41,203 nt of DNA from an uncultured Bacilli bacterium (lineage in GTDB: Bacteria; Bacillota_I; Bacilli_A; RF39; UBA660). A model generated the notes under the pieces. The model did not search any database. It saw nothing but the letters and a program-made list of their open reading frames with translations, and was not told the DNA's origin. The position numbers were made by a program, and so were the translations under genes. The DNA lies in the NCBI GenBank assembly GCA_947625625.1, contig CANQPC010000010.1, positions 1-41,203 of the forward strand, written 5' to 3'. This document shows positions 8,584 to 11,739 of the stretch, in pieces. Position 1 is the first letter of the stretch, and each line of letters begins with the position of its first letter.

Positions 8584-9540
8584 ATGAAGATATCTAAAAG
8601 TGAAATAAAAACATTAATTATTATATTATTAATATGTGCTATTTGTACTATTTTAGTATTTTTTCTAAGTATCAAAAGTAATAGTGATAGATTAGCAGCG
8701 GTAACAGAATATAATACTTTCTTTTCTGCAAATAAGTATGCCAATAATTATTTAAATTATCTCTCTAATAGAAATAACGCATCTATTTACAATTTAATAT
8801 ATAAAGATTATATAGAAAAAAATAATGTAACAGAAGACAATATCTTAAATACTGTTGACATATATACTGATAGCCTTTCTTTAAAAATAAAAAGCATGGA
8901 TTATGTAGAAATAAAAGATAATTATGCCTATTATATACAAGGTAGCCTTATTCAAAATAATTATGATTCCAAAGAGACAATAAAAGATAATTTTCAAATA
9001 TTTGTTTTAACTGACTTTAATAATTTAACATTTGCAGTATATCCACTTAAAAATAATGATAATTATAAGAAAATTATCGATAACATTAAAGAAATCAATA
9101 TACCAAAAAATAGTACTAATGCCATGACTAAAACAGCATCAATAACTAAAGATGAAGTATGTATTCTATATTTATCAGATTTTGTTGATAAATTATTCAA
9201 TGATTTAAACTCTTCATACACTATGCTTAATGATAATATGAAAAAGCTTTATCCCAATATAAATTCTTATCAATCATATATTGAAAGTAAAATTAACAAG
9301 ATAACAACAGGAATAGATAGTTGTAAAGTAGAAAGTGGATCTGATGGTAGAACATATTCTGTAATTGATAAAAATAAAAATAGATACATCTTTAACGAAA
9401 GTTCAATATTAAATTATAAAGCCGAAATATATTTATATGAAGATATAGCAACTGAAAGCAATAATACTGACAATTCTGTTGATAATACAGCAGAAAATTC
9501 ATCGAGTAGCTCTGAAATTCCAGATAATCAAAATGAATAA
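8584..9540 (+). CDS. Single-pass membrane protein, candidate VirB8/TcpC-like component
   Basis: 318 residues from ATG 8584, chosen for AGGAG at 8571-8575; a longer in-frame reading would run back inside the previous gene. A short cytoplasmic N-terminus is followed by a membrane segment (about residues 8-29), then an extracytoplasmic part. That part shows two similar halves, each a helical stretch followed by strands: about 40-170 and 195-290. The tail is Ser/Asn/Glu-rich. One N-terminal helix plus two NTF2-like lobes is the architecture of VirB8-like proteins such as TcpC. The location in the operon agrees, but I recognise no diagnostic motif, so this is an inference. Another extracytoplasmic channel protein is the alternative. 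Confidence 0.5.
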   Translation: MKISKSEIKTLIIILLICAICTILVFFLSIKSNSDRLAAVTEYNTFFSANKYANNYLNYLSNRNNASIYNLIYKDYIEKNNVTEDNILNTVDIYTDSLSLKIKSMDYVEIKDNYAYYIQGSLIQNNYDSKETIKDNFQIFVLTDFNNLTFAVYPLKNNDNYKKIIDNIKEINIPKNSTNAMTKTASITKDEVCILYLSDFVDKLFNDLNSSYTMLNDNMKKLYPNINSYQSYIESKINKITTGIDSCKVESGSDGRTYSVIDKNKNRYIFNESSILNYKAEIYLYEDIATESNNTDNSVDNTAENSSSSSEIPDNQNE

Positions 9541-9607
9541 AAAAGTTTAAGTTATGAATCTTAGTGAGAATAACATCATGAAATTTTAGCAAATATTCAA
9601 AAAATAC

Positions 9608-9636
9608 TTGCAACAAGTAATAATTTTTGCTATACT
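9608..9636 (+). promoter_or_regulatory. Strong sigma-A promoter for the leader ORF/surface protein unit
   Basis: TTGCAA (9608-9613), a 17-base spacer, then TATACT (9631-9636), with TGC as extended -10. It starts a separate transcript between the VirB8-like gene and the surface protein gene. Confidence 0.8.
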
Positions 9637-9672
9637 TAATATGAAAATAGATAGAAGGAAGGTGACTCTCTC

Positions 9673-9765
9673 ATGAATAAAAGAAGTATTAACTATAAGT
9701 TAACATGGGGGGGGGCAATTCTTAGTAAAAAAACAATTCAAAGTAAAAATAAGATTATGAAATAA
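9673..9765 (+). CDS. 30-residue leader peptide or mini-gene containing a run of nine Gs
   Basis: ATG 9673 follows AGGAAGGTG at a good distance, 36 bases downstream of a strong promoter. The reading frame begins MNKRSINYKLTWGG, crosses the G run and ends at TAA 9763-9765, inside the 5' arm of a terminator hairpin. With nine Gs it encodes 30 residues. With eight it would end at a TGA (9758-9760) also in the hairpin arm. With ten it would stop early at TAG 9723-9725. The sequence resembles no family I know. Promoter, ribosome site and terminator argue that it is expressed. It may act as a regulatory leader peptide instead of a functional protein. Confidence 0.55.
   Translation: MNKRSINYKLTWGGAILSKKTIQSKNKIMK
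9707..9715 (+). repeat. Homopolymeric G9 tract (candidate slippage site)
   Basis: Nine consecutive Gs in an AT-rich background; the next longest run I noticed is five. It lies inside the 30-codon ORF. Such tracts are classic sites of replication slippage. Confidence 0.92.
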
Positions 9766-9803
9766 GTTATATTAGTTATAACTATTTTTTCATAATTTTT
9801 TTT
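9754..9803 (+). terminator. Intrinsic terminator between leader ORF and surface-protein gene
   Basis: ATTATGAA (9754-9761) pairs with TTCATAAT (9789-9796), and AGTTATA (9765-9771) pairs with TATAACT (9777-9783), with an internal bulge and a 5-base loop. Eight Ts follow. No promoter is seen between it and the next gene at 9838, so that gene needs read-through. Confidence 0.72.
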
Positions 9804-9837
9804 ATTTTAATGATAAGAGTTGAAAGAGAGGTATAAG

Positions 9838-11739
9838 ATGAAAAAGTTAATTGAAAAGGTTAAAAGTAATAAGATAAAATCATTTGGAATAATTTTGTCT
9901 TCGTTTTTGGTAGGATTTTTAGTAGTAAATTTATTTACTAATATTACACAAAATACTTATGCAGTACAATATACTTGTAGTAATGGTTGGTATCTAACTG
10001 ATGCTACAAAGGGGAAATGCTGTCCTACTAGTGAATTCCTTCTTTATGACATTAATACATGCCAAGTAATACTATCAAAGACTATAACAGAGCAAAAATG
10101 CAAAGGCTATGGTGGAGTGTGGCTGGCAGGAGCACAAAAGTGTAGTGTACCTTCAAAAAATGCTACAGTTTCCACTGCCACGAAAAAATGCTATCAATGT
10201 GGAAGTACTTACTATTGGGCAACTAGTCCACCTAGTAGTAGCGGATGTGTCTATCTTTCTGGTGTAACACAAAATAATTGTTCAGCCGCAAAACAACAAA
10301 AAAAATGTTATCAGTGTGGAAGCACTTATTATTGGGCAACTAGTCCACCTAGTAGTAGCGGATGTGTCTATCTTTCTGGTGTAACACAAAATAATTGCTC
10401 AGCATCAAAACAGCAAAAATGCTATAGATGCAGCGATCCTTATGGTGGTTGGTATTATACGTGGGCGACTAGTCCACCTAGTAGTAGCGGATGTACATGG
10501 AATAGGAATATAACAAGCCAAAGTGGCTGCCAAGTTAAGCACTTACAAGCATCCTTTATTGCAACCAATAATGGAGCAGTAGTAGCAAATAATGGAACAG
10601 TTCCAAGTACAATTCAGTCTTGTACTGTTGAGCCCGGTAATACAAGTTGTAAAGTAACCGCTCCAAGTGCTAAAAGAGATGGTTATAATTTTGCAGGGTG
10701 GAGTACACAGCAAAACTGTCCTAGTGGCACTGGATTTGCATCGGGAACAATCTCCATAAACTCGAATAAAATTTATTATACATGTTGGAGTACGTCAAAA
10801 GCTACTAAAGAAGATTATAATGATTATCCGACATACGATTCAGGATCATCATCTTCATCTCCATCAGTAACTGCTAATACTAGAAATTTTTACACTATCA
10901 CGTATGATTTAGATGGAGGACATTTCATTGATAATACAACTAGTCGTACAGAAGTTGTAGCGAGCAACAAAAAAATTGGTAATCTAAAAACCAATCCTCT
11001 AAAAGACGGCAAAAAATTTGTTGAATGGCAGGCCGATGGAAAAACATTTGATTTTAGCCAAATGCCAACCAAAAATGTAACTGTAAAAGCAATTTATGAA
11101 GACTTAACCGATGAAGATAAACAGTATTACTGTGAAGACAGTAATTATGTGCTAGATCCATCTAAGAGATTGTGCTATAAAGTAATGGTTCCAGATAATA
11201 AAAAAACATTCAATTATACTACATATACATATGCAGAAAATTCGAGATTTTGCTATGCATATCATTCAGATACAGGAACACCAGGAGGAGTATACTATAA
11301 AACTGGTCAAAATGTTCCTGATGAGGAAAAAGGAAAACAAGGCGAAGAGTATGAAGGCTATAACAAGCAAGAAGCATGGATATCAAAAGATACATGCCAA
11401 ATAGCATCAGAATGTAAAAAGTCATCTAGCGAATCATATAGCGCATGTGAAATAAGGTGGGATGCTATAATATATACAACTACCAATGCTTTAGTAAAAG
11501 AAGAAGAAGATAAATTTGTAGAAGTCCCTGATGATGAACCAGCAGATGATGATGAAAATAAGGAAGATAATGATAGCTCTAATAAAGAAAACAACAATAA
11601 AACTGACAAAGACCTTACATCATCTCCAAAAACAGGAAGTTTTCTAATAATCTTTGCTTGGGTAGTAGGAATAGGTGCTTTAATAGCAGCAGTATATATA
11701 TTGAAAAAAAATTCAAATAAGGTTGAAAAAGACAATTAA
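9838..11739 (+). CDS. Cys-rich repeat surface protein with InlB-like repeat and SPKTG sorting signal
   Basis: 633 residues from ATG 9838 (AGAGG at 9827-9831); a TTG 18 bases upstream is a weaker alternative. A signal segment lies at about residues 12-38. Three CYxC modules start at C118, C157 and C195, two nearly identical (CYQCGSTYYWATSPPSSSGC). Residues ~240-330 and ~352-420 resemble the Listeria-Bacteroides (InlB B) repeat; the second begins ITYDLDGG. A Glu/Asp/Asn-rich stalk follows. The C-terminus has SPKTG (596-600), a hydrophobic helix and a Lys-rich tail, the layout of a sortase sorting signal with S in place of the usual L. It is probably an adhesin or cell-cell contact protein serving the neighbouring secretion machine; function is inferred. 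Confidence 0.75.
   Translation: MKKLIEKVKSNKIKSFGIILSSFLVGFLVVNLFTNITQNTYAVQYTCSNGWYLTDATKGKCCPTSEFLLYDINTCQVILSKTITEQKCKGYGGVWLAGAQKCSVPSKNATVSTATKKCYQCGSTYYWATSPPSSSGCVYLSGVTQNNCSAAKQQKKCYQCGSTYYWATSPPSSSGCVYLSGVTQNNCSASKQQKCYRCSDPYGGWYYTWATSPPSSSGCTWNRNITSQSGCQVKHLQASFIATNNGAVVANNGTVPSTIQSCTVEPGNTSCKVTAPSAKRDGYNFAGWSTQQNCPSGTGFASGTISINSNKIYYTCWSTSKATKEDYNDYPTYDSGSSSSSPSVTANTRNFYTITYDLDGGHFIDNTTSRTEVVASNKKIGNLKTNPLKDGKKFVEWQADGKTFDFSQMPTKNVTVKAIYEDLTDEDKQYYCEDSNYVLDPSKRLCYKVMVPDNKKTFNYTTYTYAENSRFCYAYHSDTGTPGGVYYKTGQNVPDEEKGKQGEEYEGYNKQEAWISKDTCQIASECKKSSSESYSACEIRWDAIIYTTTNALVKEEEDKFVEVPDDEPADDDENKEDNDSSNKENNNKTDKDLTSSPKTGSFLIIFAWVVGIGALIAAVYILKKNSNKVEKDN
10186..10530 (+). repeat. Tandem 117/114-bp repeats encoding four-Cys modules
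   Basis: Units begin at about 10186, 10303 and 10417. The first two are nearly identical at DNA level over most of their length. The third shares a central stretch (TGGGCGACTAGTCCACCTAG) but has a different start and end. Near-identity suggests a recent duplication or gene conversion. Confidence 0.88.

Follow-up and report, generated by a model that had tools for sequence, protein, structure and literature searches.

The window, a 41,203-nucleotide stretch of an uncultured Bacilli bacterium (contig CANQPC010000010.1), contains a surface-protein gene preceded by a compact element (9608-9803) in which a promoter, a short leader ORF carrying nine consecutive Gs and a predicted terminator follow one another. 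This anatomy can be read directly from the DNA:

9608-9636, + strand: promoter TTGCAA-17-TATACT with an extended −10 (TG), recognized from the sequence and from the promoter pattern of other copies
9653-9665, + strand: ribosome-binding site of the leader ORF, AGAAGGAAGGTGA, near-invariant among copies
9666-9675, + strand: CTCTCTC spacer and ATG, complementary to CATGGGGGGG, with pairing to the G tract possible
9673-9765, + strand: leader ORF of 30 codons with nine Gs (ATG 9673-9675, stop 9763-9765), the long phase and the state of the assembly
9689-9703, + strand: palindrome TTAAC-N5-GTTAA immediately 5′ of the G tract, its arms constant and its loop variable among genus copies
9707-9715, + strand: G9 tract, the proposed slippage site (G6 to G11 in other copies)
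9723-9725, + strand: early stop codon used at 10 Gs (OFF phase), from the stop position computed for each G number
9751-9803, + strand: predicted intrinsic terminator, a hairpin (9751-9799) overlapping an 8-T tract (9796-9803), with the leader stop within the 5′ arm region
9826-9831, + strand: ribosome-binding site of the surface-protein gene, GAGAGG, read from the sequence
9838-11739, + strand: surface protein of 633 aa with a signal/TM segment, a Listeria-Bacteroides (InlB-type) repeat and a C-terminal SPKTG plus TM segment
11765-11824, + strand: probable terminator 3′ of the surface gene, AAAAAGAAGC...GCTTCTTTTT, read from the sequence

A sequence-only reading of this DNA had proposed that a strong promoter, a ribosome site and a 30-codon ORF with nine Gs lead into a terminator whose 5′ arm holds the ORF's stop codon, ahead of a surface-protein gene with no promoter of its own. 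The ribosome site and the leader ORF are present as it described them, and the G tract within the ORF is the sole run of eight or more Gs in the window, where shuffles average 0.06 matches. The promoter lies at the stated position; it scores 9/12, and with 19 promoter-like sites in this AT-rich region vs 17.0 ± 4.6 in shuffles, 9608-9636 taken alone does not rise above chance. What makes it credible is that TTGNNN-17-TANNNT recurs in nearly all other copies of the element, similarly spaced upstream of the GGTGAC in the ribosome site. The hairpin, with its eight Ts and the leader stop in its 5′ arm, folds at about −14 kcal/mol (z = −4.5 vs shuffles); a consensus terminator scan missed it because the stem has fewer than three G-C pairs, and this mostly A-U stem is, judged from folding, a putative terminator. 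The absence of a separate promoter for the surface gene is borne out, as no promoter-like site was found on the + strand from 9637 to 9838. Transcripts from the T4SS genes ending at 9540 could also read into the element, where they would meet the same hairpin.

The element seen in the window occurs at least 13 times in this 1.16-Mb genome. Searched as DNA against the genus, 9541-9900 gave 12 further strong matches in the same genome and nine in a congeneric one (G003); copies were gathered region by region. Several contigs end within the module, as repeats would lead one to expect, and the copy number, which includes some copies cut by contig ends, is thus a minimum. In order, the module comprises the promoter, AGAAGGAAGGTGACTCTCTC-ATG and a short stretch of codons, then TTAAC-N5-GTTAA, a 3-base gap and 8 or 9 Gs, and finally a more variable part that ends in hairpin and T-tract; the gene comes after it. 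Among this genome's copies, 24-26 bases separate the promoter end from GGTGAC, and since this spacing is kept despite unrelated flanks, the promoter belongs to the module. Ten of the genome's 11 runs of eight or more Gs lie inside the module, the remaining one at C1:108320. The module occurs in 6 of 11 congeneric genomes, in which a reversed control pattern gave zero matches, and in larger genome samples it is almost confined to the genus, with one match in another genus (G230); related modules are present in two more Bacilli MAGs, Candidatus Onthousia faecigallinarum and CALVJC. A mobile-element origin was rejected, the module having no similarity to plasmids or phages. Copies in the genome G002 look locked, with the tract interrupted as GGTGGGGGG in one (L230) and the leader start changed from ATG to ATT in another (L081). 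Leaders in G010 (L071, L072, L073) carry an extra long hairpin, GTGGTAACAT...ATGTTATCAC then Ts, around the leader start codon, and its 5′ arm differs among copies.

For each copy we computed the leader stop at n − 1, n and n + 1 Gs and compared it with the hairpin position, calling a phase long when the leader extends at least 50 nt beyond the tract and short when the stop falls within 25 nt. Of 24 copies, 22 showed a single long phase and two short ones, compared with about 5 of 24 expected from dinucleotide shuffles; the 24 copies were hand-chosen and are related, hence not independent, and 12 were counted as roughly independent. When each lineage and type contributes about one copy, the rule holds in 10 of 12, against a null of ~0.2 each. 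An earlier clustering for the frame statistics merged nearly all copies, had a non-significant test of its own and gave way to the 24-copy set. Two copies break the rule, L051 and that of the window. The latter has two long phases, n = 8 and n = 9, which end in the 5′ part of the stem (stops at 9758-9760 and 9763-9765), and one short phase, n = 10 (9723-9725), which leaves the hairpin free; recomputation returned the same three stops that the sequence-only reading had given. The long leader ends inside the hairpin in the window copy, L051 and the G003 type and runs through it in the other copies; its stop overlaps the next gene's start as ATGA in L085 and G230 and lies just past the next gene's ATG in L052. 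Tract lengths differ among near-identical copies (8 or 9 in this genome, 6 and 8-10 in G003, 8-11 in G010), variation that is observed between copies and species and is to be read with the proviso that G-run lengths in assembled MAGs may be wrong. These differences between copies fit slippage. By the stop-position rule, this genome's complete-tract copies divide about evenly: window, L051, L052, L054 and L059 are predicted to be ON, and OFF is predicted for two copies each in L053 and L056 and, from its sequence type, for L055.

The lower stem of the hairpin (AAGACTATGAA / TTCATAGTCTT) is conserved, with 92% of cells paired across copies vs 26-48% when slid. Two of its pairs have changes on both sides, a number reached by 133 of 500 shuffles; with few changes in the alignment, the shuffle controls are only moderately supportive of covariation. 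Within the genus, the TTAAC-N5-GTTAA palindrome keeps its arm sequence and spacing while its loop and the encoded amino acids vary, and this constancy of the arms points to a role at the DNA or RNA level. Pairing of the spacer and start codon (9666-9675) with the G tract gives a fold z of −3.8 and is comparable in some relatives and missing in others. We speculate that, in this species and some relatives, this pairing could link translation of the leader with early loading of ribosomes; it could also complicate leader translation. Neither the palindrome nor the spacer/G-tract pairing is common to all lineages.

In the literature searched, the only matching mechanism we found is that of S. gallolyticus pil1/pil3, which makes this the one species with a proven example of phase variation via a leader-peptide attenuator. 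As in the module, a promoter, a leader ORF with an unstable repeat, a premature stem-loop terminator and a surface-structure gene are combined at these loci (PMC3894217), and the repeat number modulo 3 places the leader stop either ahead of the terminator or inside it. In pil1, two phases are long and one short, described with 21, 23 and 22 repeats (Danne et al. 2014, PMC3894217); the window copy shares this arrangement, whereas in most module copies one phase is long and the other two are short. The repeat is a pentamer in S. gallolyticus (GCAGA, 22 copies) and a G homopolymer here, and the two pilus loci there contrast with at least 13 dispersed copies here, which stand before unrelated gene types. 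The mechanism is experimentally proven in S. gallolyticus, whereas here the DNA sequence suggests it: the element has the promoter and ribosome site before a short leader ORF and the unstable repeat inside the leader, and in silico also the premature intrinsic terminator between leader and gene and the modulo-3 shift of the stop to within or beyond it. With these sequence-level defining features of pil1, the element appears to work like pil1. The union of repeat-tract phase variation and leader-peptide attenuation, previously offered as an inference, is an already published mechanism (Danne et al.), and what is new here is a homopolymer-based, dispersed form of the known phase-variable leader-peptide attenuator principle.

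Other systems share parts of this design. Pilus switches of Bifidobacterium breve, a gut commensal, control surface structures by G10-G11 slippage (PMC9187656), but there the structural gene itself contains the tract and is split by it, with no leader ORF and no attenuator. In trp-type attenuation the position of the ribosome on a leader ORF also decides terminator formation, whereas the element here has neither sensing codons nor an antiterminator helix and its input is a DNA sequence state. Promoter-spacer homopolymer switches also set surface-gene transcription by homopolymer length, but act at initiation.

We consider it probable that the element is a phase-variable attenuator, providing per-gene phase variation by translation-dependent antitermination; for its logic, S. 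gallolyticus gives direct experimental precedent. Transcription would start from the promoter at 9608-9636, ribosomes would load on the leader ORF, and DNA polymerase slippage would alter the number of Gs. In the long phase, the ribosome would reach the 5′ arm of 9751-9799 and block the hairpin, such that RNA polymerase continues to 9838 (ON); in the short phase, the ribosome would be off at 9725, the hairpin would form and transcription would end in the T-tract (OFF). The window assembly (n = 9) would be ON, and with a separate module at each of at least 13 loci, each gene could switch alone. We infer that slippage occurs in the population, that transcription terminates at the hairpin and that ribosomes drive read-through; that diverse sequences and species keep one phase reaching the hairpin and others stopping early supports the combined slippage and attenuation logic that had been put forward for this locus. 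This genus of uncultured Bacilli thus appears to use the switch as a portable cassette, each locus with its own G tract, and independent switching of surface genes could give many combinations. The stop position relative to the terminator is readable from DNA, so ON and OFF states should be callable from metagenomes and surface variation becomes testable.

The long leader might instead bring ribosomes to the next start by translational coupling, the hairpin mattering mainly for translation and not transcription. The ATGA overlaps of L085 and G230 would suit such coupling, as would the L052/L053/L056 type, in which the long leader ends within a few bases of the next start. In the window copy, L051 and the G003 type, however, the leader's stop falls within the hairpin, still tens of bases 5′ of genes that have their own ribosome site; the feature common to the copies is reaching the hairpin, not reaching the start codon, and T-tracts lie 3′ of the hairpins. 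We regard coupling as an unlikely explanation on these grounds. Long G runs can also slip in transcription and translation, and the palindrome could then be a stimulatory stem-loop, with a mixture of leaders in each cell setting a constant, leaky read-through that is not heritable. Near-identical copies differ in tract length, which means that the DNA itself varies, and the three-phase stop design suits a DNA-encoded switch; non-heritable slippage as the main explanation is accordingly very improbable to us, some added slippage being still compatible with the attenuator.

The two remaining explanations are, we think, scarcely credible. If the leader peptide itself were the functional product, switched by the G tract, its good ribosome site and the conserved start MNKRSIN..L.WGGG in this species would make sense, but the peptides encoded after the tract differ by lineage whereas the stop holds its place relative to the hairpin, and the palindrome-arm bases are kept while the encoded amino acids change. 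An ordinary amino-acid-sensing attenuator with a fixed tract, for example for glycine, would account for the consecutive GGG glycine codons of the long phase; against it, we saw no alternative antiterminator helix and no Rfam family match, the genes encode surface proteins, and neither tract length nor frame is constant. A riboswitch or other known cis-regulatory RNA was rejected, as a comparison of 9400-10000 with Rfam 15 returned nothing up to E = 1.

The genes 3′ of the module mostly encode single surface proteins. The window protein matches Pfam Flg_new (E = 5.9e-14), and the L074 gene encodes the same repeat domain and a similar C-terminal end; others encode DUF285 leucine-rich repeat proteins and an LRR_4 protein. 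The N-termini of several more module-led proteins read like TasA/SipW-type signal segments, and these proteins had no Pfam match. No pilus operon was found behind the module, a pilus target being a trait of the first example that we do not treat as part of the mechanism's definition; the genes there mostly encode single surface proteins and, in one case, an EssC-like ATPase. This FtsK/FHA ATPase gene follows the module in G003 (L070:1150-5000), and a type VII secretion locus would thereby become phase-variable. In six related species, the gene that precedes the window copy directly adjoins virD4, which has a conserved promoter of its own; neither a leader nor a surface gene separates the two. 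The window copy and its gene were presumably inserted into a conserved T4SS operon or lost in the other species, and we favour insertion.

A scan of the genome collection for the palindrome plus a G tract returned 72 stretches, ~26 of them in one planctomycete, ~8 in Bacteroidales and several in a poribacterium. The planctomycete has other G-tract copies without the strict left arm, and its palindrome is therefore partly a product of the search pattern; in viral contigs the motif matched once, as did a scrambled control. For these two reasons we do not claim a cross-phylum palindrome. That TTAAC-N5-GTTAA is a dedicated slippage-promoting (or protein-binding) element travelling with G tracts, with different outputs by phylum, is doubtful; its outputs would be attenuator leaders here, prepilin-like gene 5′ ends in the planctomycete, promoter regions in Bacteroidales and methylase-like genes in the poribacterium.

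The G10 tract of L061 (G000:C1 about 108310-108350; C1:108320) lies in the spacer of a TTGACT-17-TATAAT promoter 5′ of a prepilin-like gene (GFTLIELLAVIVILAIIA), so that the genome with the module also seems to have a phase-variable switch of the classic promoter-spacer kind. The planctomycete MAG Rs511_bin15 (L079, L083, L087 and other JAITST loci) has ~26 motif-bearing G7-G13 tracts near ORF starts; these ORFs lead into FTLVELLVVIAIIG prepilin-like (DUF1559-like) sequences, with tract length setting the frame, and likely form a large phase-variable pilin-like family. In Bacteroidales (L078, L084, L094, L106, L130, L135), TTAACNAAATGTTAAAATGGGGGGGG lies just 5′ of a likely promoter before secreted-protein genes, making promoter-region phase variation possible, and this 26-base string recurs in the planctomycete with one base different. 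In the poribacterium (L099, L116, L126, L139), G8-G10 tracts follow TTAACTATTGGTTAA beside or inside several genes resembling DNA methylases, which are possibly phase-variable.
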